Shown here piece after piece: positions 6,846-25,580 of a DNA stretch of 49,712 bases. The notes under the pieces were generated by a model that was given only the letters and a program-made list of their open reading frames with translations, made no database searches and had not been told where the DNA came from. The stretch spans positions 1-49,712 of IMG/VR virus record IMGVR_UViG_3300028025_000958; one strand, written 5' to 3'. Positions within the stretch are counted from its first letter, which is position 1. Each line of letters starts with the position of its first letter. The position numbers and the translations under genes were made by a program. The stretch comes from a virus.

Positions 6846-9800
6846 ATGGCAAGAACAGTACGCAACCCTTTGGAATTAAGAACGCCCGTCCGAACAATTA
6901 GTTCGGTGATGCGTAACGCCCCCAACAAAAGATTCAGACCTACTGAGTTAGATTTTGGTGATGGTCGCGGTGACCGAGGCGGTCGCGGTGGCATGGGTGT
7001 TCGCGGCGGTCAAGATGATTTTGGCAATTTAACCTCTGTTTCTCGCGCTCCCCGTGAAACAATTGCTAGTCGCGCACCCGTATCTGAAGGCGTAGCGACT
7101 CCTATTTCCCGTGGAACAACTACTGGTGCTCCAGCGGCGCGTGTACAAACAGGTACAACAAGAGCGCCTCAAGCTAGTCCCAAACCTGCCATTACTTCTG
7201 CAATTAAAAAACCTGCTGTAGCGGCAAAGACTACTACGCCTGCGGCAAAACCTCCTGTTGCGGCTAAAACAACAACCAAGACTCCAGTTGCCGCCAAGAC
7301 TACTACGACAAAGGCACCTGTTGCGGCTAAAACTACAGCAACAAAACCAGTAACAACAGCAAAAAAACCTGCCGTTACTCCAACTAAGCCAGCAACAAAG
7401 CCATCAAGCAGTTTAACAAGTACGTTGAAAAAAGCGGCTGTTGCCGCAGGAACTGCCGCGCTAGTTAACAAGGCAGTTAACAAATTAACGACGCCTAAAA
7501 CACCCGTTGTAAAGCCGCCAGTGATTCCCGGCACACCTAAGCCACCAATTGGCAAACAACCAGTTATCCCCGGAACGCCTAAGCCTCCAATTACATCTAT
7601 TGTTAAGCCAGCAGGCATTCCGACAAAGGGTGGCGTTGGGATAAAGCCCGGCGGGGGCGCTCCTACTTTGAAGCCACCAGCAGGCACTAAACCTCCTGTT
7701 GTTCCTAAAGGCTCTACAGCAGGCGCAACTGGCGCATTGACTGAAGATCAAATTCAAGCCGAGTTAGATCGCGTTAGAACAGAGACAGAGGGCAATGTTG
7801 TTCCTGAAGGCGCTGTAACAAATGAAGATGGTTCTTACTCAGTTACCGAAAATGGAATGATTAACACCTATGACAAGGATGGAAACATCATTGGCATGGA
7901 GGCGGTTACAGATACCACAACCGACACTACAACTGACACAACTACTGGCGTAGATACCACCACTGGTTTGACCAGAAGCCTTACTGGTGGTGCTGGAGAC
8001 ACAACGGTTACTGGTGAAGACACCTCTGGAATGACAGACCTTGGCGAAGGTTACTTTGCTGATGCAAGTGGAAACATCTACGGCGCTGATGGAAACTTGA
8101 TGTACACCGTTGGTGCAGACGGAGAATACGTTGATGCCTCTGCTTCAGGTGCTACTACAACTGCTGATGAAACAACTTGGACAGACCCAGAAACAGGTTT
8201 AACTTGGAATATGGGTGAAGATGGTAGTTGGTCACAAGAGGGCGTTAGCACTGAAGACGTAACCTCTTGGACTGACCCTGAGACAGGATTAACTTGGAAT
8301 CAGGGTGCAGACGGTGAGTGGTCTCAAGAGGGGTTTGATGCTTCTGCTGAAGATACAACTTCTTGGACTGATCCAGAAACAGGTCTTACTTGGAATCAAG
8401 GTGCTGATGGTGAATGGTCTCAAGAAGGTTTTGACGCATCTGGCGAAGATTACACATTAGGTGATGACGGATCAGGTGAAGACACATACGTTGCTGACGA
8501 TGAATACGTCGATGACGGTACAAATTACGAAGAAGATGCCAAGGGTGGTTCAATTCGTCGTAAGCGTCATTTTGACGATGGTGGCTATACAGGTCTTGGT
8601 TACGGCGAAGATTTTGGTTACTCTGACACTGGCGAAGAAGTTCAAGATTTTCAGAACGTCGGCTACAACTATGGTGAGTTTGACGACCCAACAATGTTTG
8701 CTGGTGATACATCACCATATGCTGGAAGCATGGCAAGAAATACTTATTTGAGTTCAGCGTCATTGCCATCCCCAGAGGGTTGGCCTGCTGGTTTCGTTGA
8801 CAACGGTGACGGCACGGCTACCTATGTTGATGATGACGGTAGCACAATGACAATTGATGCCGACAGCAACATTGTTTATGTAACTGATACAGAGGGAAAT
8901 TCCTTTGACTCTGAGGGCAATACTGTTGACCCAGCAAATATCTCATCTACTTCAAGCACAGGCGGATGGAATGACAATGGCGATGGAACATATAGTCGTT
9001 GGGATGGTGATCAATATGTAACCGTTGACGGCGAAACCAATACTGAATTGCTTCGCACCGACTCTGAAGGAAACCCAGTTACTGCTCCAGTAGGATCAAT
9101 TACCTCTTCTGGTGGTGGAAACAAGCCAAGTTTTGCAACAGCGGCGGCTGATGCGGCGGTTAATCAAAACCAGCCAGACCAAACTGGCATTTTGGATTCA
9201 TTGTTAAATGCCGTTCGCGATAACCCCGGTCTGGCTGGCGGAGCCGTAGGTGCTCTGATTGCATCTTTGATGGATCAAGCCGAAAGCAGTGAGTCTGCTA
9301 GTCCAAGCCAACCCGTTGACATCTCTGAGTTAACTTCGTTTGACCCACGCACTACAGACTTTGGTGCAGGCATGGTGGGTGGTCGCACAGGTACTGGTAG
9401 CCCAATTGTTTCTTATTCTGACTATGCAGAAGGCTACGGCGATGAGACTCCTGATGACCGTCTGTATTCAGACCTTGGTATCTCTGGCTGGCTCAGAGAG
9501 CCTGACATGAACAATTACAGGGATGAAGAGGGCAACCTATTAGATCAGTCTGGAAACCTTGTTGATGAATATGGCTACTTGCTAGAAGACGGTGACTATG
9601 AGGAAGCAGTTCCTGAAGAGGAAACTGCTGTCGAGGACGCATACGAAGCCGAAGAAGAACCAGCAATGGCGGGTGGCGGTACAACGCACTACACGTTTGG
9701 TCGCGTAATGAACCCTGCTGACAATCTTGGTTTGGGTCAAGGTATGAAAAAGGGTGGTCTGTCACAGGCTCACACCGTTCACAGCCACCACACCAATCCA

Positions 9801-22045: not shown

Positions 22046-22199
22046 AACAGTAATGAGCGAATACATCAAAGGGTTTGATCACGGGTGCGACTACATTGTT
22101 GCGGAGATTGAGCGATACATCAAAGAATGCAACAGCCATGATGCATTGGTGCTAGTTGACTTGGTCAAGCGACTTAAAATGGAAGACAAACCAAAATGA
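22038..22199 (+). CDS. 53-residue small acidic protein
   Basis: ATG at 22038, with GGGGAG upstream, gives a helical peptide starting MSETVMSEYIKGFDHGCDYI. It overlaps the previous gene by 8 bases and the methyltransferase by 4. It lies immediately upstream of the DNA-modification cassette. Function unknown. Confidence 0.65.
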   Translation: MSETVMSEYIKGFDHGCDYIVAEIERYIKECNSHDALVLVDLVKRLKMEDKPK

Positions 22200-23236
22200 A
22201 ATTCATTGAATTATTTGCAGGCATTGGTGGGTTCCGCCTCGGGTTAGAAAAGGCGGGTCACGAGTGCGTGTGGGCTAACGAATTCACACTAAAGGCGGCA
22301 AGCATTTATGAACACAACTTCAAACACAAACCAGATGGACGAGACATCAGAGGAATTCACGTTGATGAAATCCCCAGCGCAAATTTACTCGTTGGAGGAT
22401 TTCCATGCGCAACTTTCAGCGTTGCTGGAAGACGAACAGGGTTTGGGACAGAAGATACACGAGGTACTCTCTTTTTTGAAATCTGCCGAATCCTATCTGG
22501 TAAGCGAATCCCATATCTATTCCTTGAGAATGTTAAGGGACTCCTCAATCACGACGGAGGAAGAACCTTTGGAGTTATCGTCGCAAGTCTGGATGAACTG
22601 GGGTATGACGTGCAATGGGAGTGTCTTAACAGCAAGAATTTCGGAGTCCCACAGAATCGGGAGCGAGTCTTTATTGTCGGAAATCTTAGAGGACACCCCA
22701 GACCAAAAGTATTTCCTGTCGGAAGAAGTTATGCAGAAGATAGCGTACAACACCGAGGTGAACAAGATCAAGAACCGAGGGTTCGGAGCGAAGGTGGTCT
22801 CACTATCGGAACACTCTGTCACAGACTTTACAAGGGAGACACTAACAACTTCTACCTTGCTGGACAAATACGAGGACAAGCTGAACAACTTGAGAACACT
22901 ACAGCAGGAGGAGGTAGTACCACCGAATCAGATGAGTCTGTTCGAGCAGTCCTAACACCAGCAAAAGAAAAGAAGCGCCAGCGTGGTCGACGCATGAAAG
23001 AACATAACGAACCAGCATTCACTCTCACTGCGCAGGATAGACATGGATTGATGGTGGGTTCTAGGTTGCGCAGATTCACACCGTTGGAATGTGAGAGGCT
23101 TCAGTCGCTACCTGATAATTGGACGCGCTGGTATGCAGACGGCTCAGAGGTTCCAGATACGCAACGATATGAGCGGTGTGGTCGTGCTGTTACTGTCAAT
23201 GTGATATACGAAATTGCAAAGAGGTTACCAGCATGA
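22196..23236 (+). CDS. C5-cytosine DNA methyltransferase with altered motif X (candidate carboxymethyltransferase)
   Basis: This 346-residue protein has all main C5-MTase motifs: FAGIGGFRLGLEKAG (residues 7-21, SAM site), GGFPCATFS with catalytic Cys71, ENV at 111-113, QNRERVFIVG at 153-162, and FTPLECERLQSLPD near 300. Residues about 165-280 form the target-recognition region. Motif X reads CGRAVTVNV with Arg330 where nearly all family members have Asn. From memory, Lys or Arg at the equivalent M.MpeI position (N374) permits use of carboxy-SAM. With the AsnB-like and CmoA-like genes that overlap it downstream, this suggests transfer of a carboxymethyl group to cytosine. Plain methylation remains the default alternative. 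A second open frame of 215 codons lies inside it. Confidence 0.93.
   Translation: MKFIELFAGIGGFRLGLEKAGHECVWANEFTLKAASIYEHNFKHKPDGRDIRGIHVDEIPSANLLVGGFPCATFSVAGRRTGFGTEDTRGTLFFEICRILSGKRIPYLFLENVKGLLNHDGGRTFGVIVASLDELGYDVQWECLNSKNFGVPQNRERVFIVGNLRGHPRPKVFPVGRSYAEDSVQHRGEQDQEPRVRSEGGLTIGTLCHRLYKGDTNNFYLAGQIRGQAEQLENTTAGGGSTTESDESVRAVLTPAKEKKRQRGRRMKEHNEPAFTLTAQDRHGLMVGSRLRRFTPLECERLQSLPDNWTRWYADGSEVPDTQRYERCGRAVTVNVIYEIAKRLPA
22308..22955 (+). CDS. Nested +1-frame gene inside the cytosine methyltransferase (candidate overprinted gene)
   Basis: The +1 frame stays open for 215 codons. Its product is acidic, with SLLSEILEDTPDQKYFLSEE in the centre, and ends NQMSLFEQS. The LSxILE...KYFLS pattern recalls small phage proteins that are encoded next to methyltransferase genes. 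QMSLF fits the beta-clamp-binding consensus QLSLF. Part of the resemblance may be forced, because the frame runs through conserved methyltransferase motif VIII. The start at 22308 has only a weak AAAGG upstream. It is plausible as a real overlapping gene but unproven. Confidence 0.45.
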   Translation: MNTTSNTNQMDETSEEFTLMKSPAQIYSLEDFHAQLSALLEDEQGLGQKIHEVLSFLKSAESYLVSESHIYSLRMLRDSSITTEEEPLELSSQVWMNWGMTCNGSVLTARISESHRIGSESLLSEILEDTPDQKYFLSEEVMQKIAYNTEVNKIKNRGFGAKVVSLSEHSVTDFTRETLTTSTLLDKYEDKLNNLRTLQQEEVVPPNQMSLFEQS

Positions 23237-24048
23237 TAGACATCAAAAAGGTTTTGCTTCAGAGCGCGGGAACACCAGAGAATGACGCCGCTGTTTTGCT
23301 CAGTGCAGGGGTAGACTCATCTAGCGTTCTATTCGCGTTGCTAGAGGCTGGTAAGCGCGTCACAGCGTATTCGTTTTGCTTAGATGACAGAACGTCAACC
23401 GATGTTAAGTATGCGCAGATCACAGCAAAAGAATTCGGTGTACCGTTTGTGCAGATACCGCTACCGACAAGCATTGATTCGCTGAGAGAAGACCTAGTGG
23501 ACTTGGTGCGGTTCGGTGCAAAGAAGAAGACAGACTTTGAGTGTGGTTGGCCAATGCTCTACGCATACAAAGCAGTCACTGAACGCGAGATATTTTCTGG
23601 CATGGGTGCAGACGGTCACTTCTGCATCAGCAAAAAAGGAATGATGCACTACAAAAACAGAATAGATGAATTTAGAAGCACGCTGTTTTCAAATCCATCA
23701 TACGGTCAAGAGCACATCCACAGAAACCTTAGCAGGGTTTACAAAAAGTGTTGGGTTGCACCATACATGACGCAAGAGATGATTGACGAGTTAAAAGGTA
23801 CAACATGGGATGAGGTCAATCGTCCGCATCAGAAGCAACCAATACTCGATGCATTTCCTGAGCAGTTCAAACGCATAAAAATTTTTAAGCACACCAACTT
23901 TCAAAAAGGTGACTCAGGTATCTCTGAGCATTTTGAAAAACTACTACACACTGACTTGAATGTTGGAAAGCATAAGTCGGTCGTTGGAATCTACAACTAC
24001 TTAGTCAAAAACTTATCGAAAGAAAATGATGAACTCTTGGACATTTGA
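23233..24048 (+). CDS. AsnB-like PP-loop ATP pyrophosphatase (amide-forming, no glutaminase domain)
   Basis: This 271-residue protein resembles the synthetase domain of asparagine synthetase B. The PP-loop SAGVDSSS is at residues 24-31, AYSFCLDD follows on the next strand, and SGMGADGHF at 122-130 matches the family's SGxGADxxF motif. The C-terminal part is helical (QKQPILDAFPEQFKRI). AsnB enzymes adenylate a carboxylate and add ammonia. This protein lacks the N-terminal glutaminase domain and so would use free ammonia or another amine. ATG at 23233 overlaps the methyltransferase stop and is preferred to an in-frame upstream ATG. The context suggests amidation of a carboxylated DNA base. Confidence 0.8.
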   Translation: MIDIKKVLLQSAGTPENDAAVLLSAGVDSSSVLFALLEAGKRVTAYSFCLDDRTSTDVKYAQITAKEFGVPFVQIPLPTSIDSLREDLVDLVRFGAKKKTDFECGWPMLYAYKAVTEREIFSGMGADGHFCISKKGMMHYKNRIDEFRSTLFSNPSYGQEHIHRNLSRVYKKCWVAPYMTQEMIDELKGTTWDEVNRPHQKQPILDAFPEQFKRIKIFKHTNFQKGDSGISEHFEKLLHTDLNVGKHKSVVGIYNYLVKNLSKENDELLDI

Positions 24049-24688
24049 TACACCAGAAATTGCAAACACATTTGACGCTCATGTGCGTGAGCAATTACCG
24101 TGGTACGACATGGTCACCGATGCGGTGGTCTACATCACCCAAAACTATTTGCCAGAGTATGGGGTGATAGTCGACATTGGTGCGTCAACAGGCAACATGA
24201 TTGACAAACTTATGCCTTTGGCAAATGAACGCATGGCAGATATTGTTGCCATTGAAAAAAGCATTCCCATGTGCGCAATTCTTAAAAAGAAATACAACAA
24301 AAAAAGCGATTGTGTTGTTGTGGAAAACTCAGACGTAACCAGAGGAGACTTACCCAAAGCTGATGTGTATATTTTGTTTTTGACAATGATGTTCATTCCA
24401 ATAGAAAAACGCAAAGCCTTAATCGACTCTATGAGAGCGAATTGCAAGCAGGGTGGGGTGATAGTAGTGGTGGACAAGGTTTGTGATCACGGCGGGTACT
24501 TTGCGACCGTCCTGAAGCGCCTTACCATGCACTTCAAGCTACAGCAGGGTGCCAAGCCAGAGGACGTGCTCAACAAAGAGATGAGCCTAGCAGGGGTGCA
24601 GATACCCATCGACCCAGCCATTCTGGGGACAGATGCCAAACAATTTTTTCGCATGGGTGAGTTTGCAGGGTGGGTGATTGAGACTTAG
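24026..24688 (+). CDS. CmoA-like SAM-dependent enzyme (candidate carboxy-SAM synthase)
   Basis: This 220-residue class I SAM-fold protein opens FDAHVREQLPWYDMVTDAVV. It has the glycine motif VDIGASTGN at residues 49-57, an acidic AIEKS at the end of strand 2, and FLTMMFIPIEKRKALIDSM followed by GGVIVVVDKV. These blocks parallel CmoA, which makes carboxy-SAM from SAM and prephenate for tRNA modification. The Arg that binds the carboxyl group in CmoA cannot be placed with certainty. The region is shorter here and an Arg occurs in FFRMGEF. It overlaps the AsnB-like gene by 23 bases. If it is not a carboxy-SAM synthase, it may be an ordinary methyltransferase of unknown substrate. Confidence 0.7.
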   Translation: MMNSWTFDTPEIANTFDAHVREQLPWYDMVTDAVVYITQNYLPEYGVIVDIGASTGNMIDKLMPLANERMADIVAIEKSIPMCAILKKKYNKKSDCVVVENSDVTRGDLPKADVYILFLTMMFIPIEKRKALIDSMRANCKQGGVIVVVDKVCDHGGYFATVLKRLTMHFKLQQGAKPEDVLNKEMSLAGVQIPIDPAILGTDAKQFFRMGEFAGWVIET

Positions 24689-24797: not shown

Positions 24798-25580
24798 ATG
24801 GAAAAAGCAAACTTCTCCCAACTGCTCAACGACGCCGTTAACCAGCCCGGCATCATCAGCAAGTGCTACAGCACTTTCCACGGCTACAGCCTTGGCAATC
24901 AACTCTTGGCATACAGCCAGTGCGTGGCACGCGAGATTCCCCTTGGCCCTATCGCCAGCTTCAACGCATGGAAAAAGTTAGGTCGCTCTGTGAGCAAGGG
25001 TCAAAAAGCTATCGCCTTGGTAATGCCCGTCACTGTCAGCAAAAAAGATGCGGCTGGCGAAAAGACTGGCGAGGTGTTCTCACTGTTCACCCTGAAAAAC
25101 AATTGGTTTGTACTCGGTCAGACTGAGGGCGACGACTACGCCGCTGAGGTGGTGATCCCCACATGGGACAAGGTCAAGGCTTTGGAAACCCTCAGCATCA
25201 CAGAGGTGCCATTCAGCCACACTGATGGCAATTGCCAAGGCTACGCCGTGTCAAACCAAATCGCGGTTAACCCAGTCGCCGTATTGCCCCACAAAACCCG
25301 TTTCCATGAGATCGCTCACGTTGTGCTCGGTCACACAAAGGAAGGTCAACTGTCAGACAGCGAAGCAACGCCCCGTGACGTGCGCGAAGTCGAGGCTGAG
25401 GGTGTTGCCTACATCCTGTGCTCTTTGCTCGGTTTGGAGGGCTTGCATGAGTCCCGTGGCTATATCCAAAACTGGTTGGCTGGTGCAGAGGTGACCGACA
25501 AGACAGCCCAGCGCATTTTCAGCGCCGCCAACAAGATTTTGGAAGCTGGACAGGATAAGGGTAAGTCCCTAGAAAAATAA
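24798..25580 (+). CDS. ardC: ArdC-like antirestriction / zincin metalloprotease-domain protein
   Basis: This 260-residue protein has two parts. Residues about 1-125 match the ArdC N-terminal ssDNA-binding domain (YSLGNQLLAYSQ, FNAWKKLGRSVSKGQKAI). Residues about 140-255 form a zincin-like domain with HEIAHVVLGH (His170, Glu171, His174) and the third-ligand region REVEAEGVAYILC. ArdC proteins protect incoming DNA from host restriction. Here it has its own promoter and leader directly after the DNA-modification cassette, which strengthens a defence-evasion role for this stretch. Its stop is followed by a GC-rich inverted repeat that overlaps the next promoter. Confidence 0.85.
   Translation: MEKANFSQLLNDAVNQPGIISKCYSTFHGYSLGNQLLAYSQCVAREIPLGPIASFNAWKKLGRSVSKGQKAIALVMPVTVSKKDAAGEKTGEVFSLFTLKNNWFVLGQTEGDDYAAEVVIPTWDKVKALETLSITEVPFSHTDGNCQGYAVSNQIAVNPVAVLPHKTRFHEIAHVVLGHTKEGQLSDSEATPRDVREVEAEGVAYILCSLLGLEGLHESRGYIQNWLAGAEVTDKTAQRIFSAANKILEAGQDKGKSLEK

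Follow-up and report, generated by a model that had tools for sequence, protein, structure and literature searches.

Three overlapping genes on a viral record, encoding a homologue of C5-cytosine methyltransferases (MTases), an AsnB-like ligase and a CmoA-like protein, raise the question of whether they act together to hypermodify cytosine, by which chemistry, and whether such a trio is already known. The stretch analyzed here ("the window") comprises a single viral record, 49,712 bases long. The cassette lies at 22196-24688 on the + strand as three consecutive genes, which overlap by 4 nt and then by 23 nt; profile matches bear out the coordinates and gene families given for them in an earlier note on this DNA. 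An open reading frame nested in the transferase gene was not part of that note.

22196..23236, + strand: HhaI-like C5-cytosine transferase, predicted carboxymethyltransferase (CmoX-like); 346 aa; PF00145 3.3e-80, TIGR00675 2.8e-83
23233..24048, + strand: AsnB-like PP-loop amide ligase without glutaminase domain (CmoY-like); 271 aa from ATG; PF00733 2.6e-11, residues 20-227
24026..24688, + strand: predicted CmoA-like carboxy-SAM synthase; 220 aa; TIGR00740 CmoA 3.3e-17
23183..23185, + strand: Arg330 codon, predicted carboxylate-binding residue (GRAV replacing GNSV; alignments)
22308..22955, + strand: nested +1-frame ORF, predicted separate protein; 215 aa/codons; phrog_16143 1.4e-34
22929..22943, + strand: QMSLF near the C-terminus of the nested ORF; fits the β-clamp-binding consensus QL(S/D)LF

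We consider it highly probable that the locus is a three-enzyme cytosine C5 hypermodification operon with a convergent CmoX transferase and a nested +1 protein that is kept by selection and carries a clamp-type motif. We note that the gene adjoining the cassette (24798-25580) matches an anti-restriction family (phrog_7245, 3e-12), which fits a counter-restriction island.

A pathway described in phage S-B43

In Synechococcus phage S-B43, the phage CmoA makes carboxy-SAM, from which CmoX, a C5-MTase homologue, forms 5-carboxymethylcytosine (5cxmC) at cytosine C5; the AsnB-like ligase CmoY then joins glycine to 5cxmC, and the resulting 5-glycylcarboxymethyl-C is present in native S-B43 phage DNA (Yang et al., Nat Commun, December 2025, PMC12783734). 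In S-B43 CmoX (SpCmoX), Arg350 replaces HhaI Asn304 and binds the carboxylate, and the enzyme does not accept SAM; the published CmoX set of 5,615 members was filtered by SPPC and R350 (PMC12783734). The trio is therefore already described (PMC12783734), a point on which the earlier note could not decide, but not with the methyltransferase lineage of the window nor with its nested ORF.

We fetched the S-B43 locus and aligned its proteins with those of the window. By homology, the window trio very probably puts carboxymethyl-cytosine in the phage DNA and then caps it with an amine. The CmoA-like protein would make carboxy-SAM from SAM and prephenate. The HhaI-like transferase would bind the carboxylate of this cofactor through Arg330 and carboxymethylate C5 of cytosines that lie in a short motif; and the AsnB-like ligase would join glycine or a similar amine to the carboxymethyl group as an amide. 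A role of the finished modification in resisting restriction would likewise follow from homology.

The CmoA-like protein

The CmoA-like protein scores 63 bits against TIGR00740, under the curated cut-off of 193 bits. A profile of its relatives searched against the PDB nevertheless matches solved CmoA (4gek) at 2.3e-33, with the next class at 1e-14. In its AlphaFold model (pLDDT 89), the best PDB match is also CmoA (TM 0.86), and other SAM enzymes follow close behind.

In E. coli CmoA (EcCmoA), Arg199 binds the carboxylate through a salt bridge (PMC3663124), and the earlier note had proposed looking for a carboxylate-binding Arg in the pocket of the CmoA-like protein. None was found at this position: the window clade has Glu in the EcCmoA Arg199 column. 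However, the active S-B43 CmoA (SpCmoA) has Glu in the same column, so the missing Arg199 does not refute carboxy-SAM synthesis, and we dropped this residue as a test for it. Among the other cofactor-site residues of CmoA, Tyr39, Gly64 and Ser66 are kept throughout, Asp62 is Asp or Glu, and Glu164 is Asp.

An arginine at the cofactor position and linkage to cmoA

The transferase contains the C5-MTase motifs, as seen in its PF00145 match and in alignment, with its catalytic Cys71 in GFPC and not SPPC. Alignment with SpCmoX and HhaI places its Arg330 in the column of HhaI Asn304 and SpCmoX Arg350, and Arg occupies this column in all window-clade MTases scored. Among 170 distinct MTase sequences, all those scored that lie near a CmoA-like gene have Arg at this position, or Gly in two Staphylococcus phages; the MTases from loci without cmoA have Asn, and none of the Asn enzymes is near a CmoA-like gene. 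The co-occurrence anticipated in the earlier note was borne out when viral loci were fetched with the MTase alone: a CmoA-like gene is close by in 77 of 80, and the other three are contigs cut off no more than about 170 bases from the MTase stop codon, so that the association is not due to chance.

The closest relatives outside the cassette are HhaI-like MTases of Streptococcus, Lactococcus and Clostridioides phages (42-45% identity). The MTase of Streptococcus phage SpSL1, 42% identical to the window transferase, makes R5mCGRC (PMC6755750).

The two Staphylococcus phage MTases (L060, 4819-5826; L224, 5672-6679) have GSPC and Gly at the Asn304 column and stand beside CmoA; Arg is thus not universal among cmoA-linked MTases, and Gly is possibly a third way to accept carboxy-SAM. 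We also note a GFPC/Arg MTase with a CmoA-like gene on a contig filed as a Nanoarchaeota MAG (L140), which is probably a misbinned phage contig.

Separate origin of the transferase

In an MTase tree built without the trait columns, the GFPC/Arg enzymes form one fully supported clade. Grouping them with the SPPC/Arg enzymes is rejected by the AU test (p-AU 1.6e-7), and with it the candidate explanation that the transferase is CmoX by descent. Since the GFPC/Arg clade stands apart from the SPPC/Arg enzymes and a joint clade is rejected, the carboxy-SAM-type Arg (Asn304 to Arg) most likely arose independently in the window lineage. The sequence comparisons thus suggest that the window transferase is a convergent CmoX, that is, a CmoX by predicted function that lies outside the published CmoX clade.

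At L035 and L036 (6651-7757), the gene that follows a CmoA-like gene encodes a highly divergent MTase with GSPC and Arg. This MTase may represent a further independent origin, its branch being too long to place.

The ligase and the final product

Sequence and profile agree with the earlier description of the ligase as a protein with SAGVDSSS and SGMGADGHF and no N-terminal glutaminase domain. It fits the CmoY layout, with a PP-loop Asn-synthase domain, no glutaminase, and adjoining CmoX-like and CmoA-like genes. The window ligase is 37% identical to SpCmoY, the S-B43 glycine ligase, and 55-57% identical to the ligases of loci L050-L054, whose neighbors are a CmoA-like gene and an SPPC/Arg transferase (CmoX). 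Consequently, the window MTase appears to fill the slot that CmoX fills in those loci, in what amounts to a partner swap.

A CmoY is present in just 12 of the 80 loci fetched with the MTase alone; most clade members have the CmoA-like gene as the sole partner of the transferase, which makes ligation an optional step in this clade. No family of neighboring ORFs is consistently present in the CmoY-less loci as a replacement ligase, and these phages may carry bare 5-carboxymethylcytosine. As a separate observation, Yersinia phage fHe-Yen9-02 (L059, 3097-4771) has CmoA-like and CmoY-like genes; a CmoX-like MTase was not recognized within the 8.8 kb stretch, in which a gene annotated as a DNA methyltransferase lies at 7782-8609.

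Carboxymethylation followed by amide ligation, as put forward in the earlier note, is the best-supported reading and has been shown biochemically for the homologous S-B43 trio. Its specific product, 5-carbamoylmethylcytosine by simple amidation, is the less likely outcome, and an amide formed with glycine or some other amine is favored, because a glutaminase domain is missing from the ligase and the one characterized homologue of the ligase attaches glycine. By analogy with SpCmoY, the acceptor of the window ligase is likely glycine or a similar amine.

A nested +1 reading frame under selection

The +1 frame of the window transferase gene is open over 220 codons, a length reached by 0 of 2,000 synonymous shuffles. 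Across the clade, this frame stays open for 174-251 codons in each of the 64 distinct GFPC/Arg genes (all at p <= 0.05), and a comparable open frame (p <= 0.05) is found in 11% of GFPC/Asn genes and in none of nine SPPC/Arg genes. The nested ORF starts at MTase nucleotide 112, a start common to most members and often placed behind an AAGGAG-like site, although the window's own site is weaker. Its +1 frame stop codons are avoided.

Synonymous codon conservation in clade pairs less than 70% identical is 0.60 inside the overlap versus 0.395 outside, while bacterial controls give 0.43 inside versus 0.40 outside. We further counted substitutions by their effect in both frames, taking codons 37-190 as the overlap. 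For the +1 frame, dNN/dNS is 0.31-0.37 and dSN/dSS 0.30-0.32 inside the overlap, compared with 0.76-0.81 and 1.2-1.7 downstream of it; dNN/dNS is 2.4-2.6 for the +2 frame, and the bacterial controls give about 1.1 (dNN/dNS) and about 1.6 (dSN/dSS), all of these figures being descriptive, as the sequences are related and the pairs are not independent, yet consistent and frame-specific in their pattern. In a small set from Firmicute phages the effect is milder (dNN/dNS 0.64, dSN/dSS 0.53), and counts outside the overlap are low there. When synonymous changes were scored with BLOSUM, the result was weak and did not separate the frames clearly, with +2 rising too; the case for the nested ORF is instead built on the dNN/dNS-type counts, the length of the open frame and the motif described below. 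The transferase gene thus seems to encode a second, predicted +1-frame protein that is kept by selection.

The predicted nested product and its clamp-type motif

The nested product belongs to phrog_16143. By tblastn, this +1 sequence turns up in 162 phage records, of which most are from Streptococcus; among the matches listed it lies mostly inside genes annotated as methyltransferases. The Streptococcus and Lactococcus phage records with the nested ORF are mostly annotated with the methyltransferase only; in Streptococcus phage MM1, the copy of the nested ORF is annotated "C5 methyltransferase beta subunit". Because genes of Asn-type MTases contain the nested ORF as well, it is likely older than the switch to carboxy-SAM. 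We note that an in-frame stretch of the MTase variable region of Bacteroides phage BC669P1 (L233, 931-2037) resembles the nested-ORF segment LSEILED..D.KYFLS...GFGAKVVS, a likeness hinting that the two frames may share an origin.

Near its C-terminus, the window's nested product has QMSLF, in keeping with the bacterial clamp-binding consensus (PMC9690074). Q..[LMI]F is found within the last 25 residues of 61 of the 64 distinct nested products, and Q..[LM]F in 3.9% of synonymous shuffles; several Firmicute-phage relatives have a clamp-type motif near the N-terminus instead. The nested ORF has no PDB match and no consistent Pfam match, and its AlphaFold model (pLDDT 52.6) is too low in confidence for fold prediction. 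Open-access literature yielded nothing relevant on phage C5-MTases with a clamp motif or an overlapping reading frame.

The simplest reading is that the transferase has the nested protein as a partner. The motif makes a host-clamp tether the most attractive role: the nested subunit would tether the transferase to the host sliding clamp, so that new phage DNA would be modified during replication.

Alternative explanations

The transferase could be an ordinary 5-methylcytosine MTase that stands by chance beside a carboxy-SAM enzyme with another job. Its HhaI-like sequence and its ordinary relatives in Streptococcus phages, such as that of SpSL1, speak for this. We nonetheless regard it as very improbable, in view of the Arg that replaces Asn at the site for the cofactor carboxylate in all clade members scored, the tight linkage to cmoA, the partner swap with true CmoX, and the inability of SpCmoX, with the same Arg, to use SAM. 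Alternatively, the carboxymethyl step may be the same and the ligase may take ammonia, which would yield 5-carbamoylmethylcytosine. Such a product is in line with AsnB family chemistry, free ammonia could in principle be used without a glutaminase domain, and another CmoY cluster does have that domain and is thought to take glutamine-derived ammonia (PMC12783734). The window ligase is of the kind without it and resembles the glycine ligase SpCmoY, and we judge ammonia to be an unlikely acceptor; glycine or a similar amine is preferred.

The nested ORF might also not be a gene, its conservation reflecting constraint on RNA or on MTase codon choice. The low-confidence model and the lack of PDB and consistent Pfam matches are compatible with such a constraint. 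Against it, selection is specific to the +1 frame when compared with the +2 frame and the bacterial controls, stops are avoided, and the clamp-type motif is in frame at the C-terminus of nearly all clade products and near the N-terminus of several distant relatives; this explanation therefore seems quite improbable to us. If a nested protein is made, it might instead serve in host takeover, binding the host's clamp and blocking it. Clamp-blocking proteins exist, for example the toxin SocB (PMC9690074), and the motif by itself would suit one. However, every locus examined has the ORF inside a methyltransferase gene, even in phages where no CmoA-like gene adjoins it, which fits a partner of the enzyme better than a clamp blocker, and we view a takeover factor as rather unlikely. 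A partner of the transferase remains our preferred reading. We propose tentatively, as a serious possibility that falls short of an even chance, that a single stretch of DNA encodes both a carboxymethyltransferase and a clamp-tethering +1 subunit, and that ordinary methyltransferases gave rise to a carboxy-SAM-using enzyme on at least two occasions, each time through the same replacement of Asn by Arg.

Relation to known systems

These results would add to a very recently discovered DNA modification pathway a second, independent carboxymethyltransferase lineage, which the published sequence filter missed. The Asn and Arg relatives display the single residue change that marks the switch in nature and offer a natural comparison set for cofactor choice. 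The nested clamp-motif ORF in turn leads to a testable claim, namely that in some phages the gene of a DNA-modifying enzyme also encodes, within it, a protein that couples this enzyme to the replisome. As the same ORF is present in ordinary Streptococcus and Lactococcus phage methyltransferases, its relevance reaches beyond the cassette.

The window and S-B43 share an adjacent, co-directional carboxy-SAM synthase, Arg-bearing C5 transferase and AsnB-like ligase without glutaminase. They differ in gene order (X-Y-A in the window, A-Y-X in S-B43), in the transferase, which in the window is HhaI-like, has GFPC, appears separately derived and falls outside the SPPC and R350 set, and in the nested +1 ORF of the window, the nine SPPC CmoX genes tested having no unusually long +1 frame. 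The engineered M.MpeI N374K is a further C5-MTase turned to carboxy-SAM by one positive residue and has been likened to the CmoX Arg (PMC12783734); there the residue is an introduced Lys, whereas the window transferase is a natural enzyme with Arg, from a phage clade linked to cmoA.

For the nested ORF, the nearest parallel is the C5 methyltransferase alpha/beta pair of phage MM1 (orf13/orf14), which belongs to the same MTase family and has a homologous nested +1 ORF (54% identity over about 125 aa). MM1 and related HhaI-type 5mC enzymes have Asn at the 304 column, in contrast to the Arg of the window; no cmoA was seen beside the MTase of the MM1 type, and the clamp-type motif of its nested ORF is near the N-terminus rather than the C-terminus. 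M.EcoHK31I likewise uses two polypeptides for one C5-MTase, the smaller of which is translated in a different frame within the gene of the larger. Its motif IX sits in the small subunit (PMC3404938), unlike that of the window, which is held by the large protein, and we therefore rejected a motif IX subunit of the M.EcoHK31I type as an explanation for the nested ORF. Finally, a clamp-tethered transferase would be a phage parallel to Dnmt1, which is tethered to PCNA (PMC9690074).
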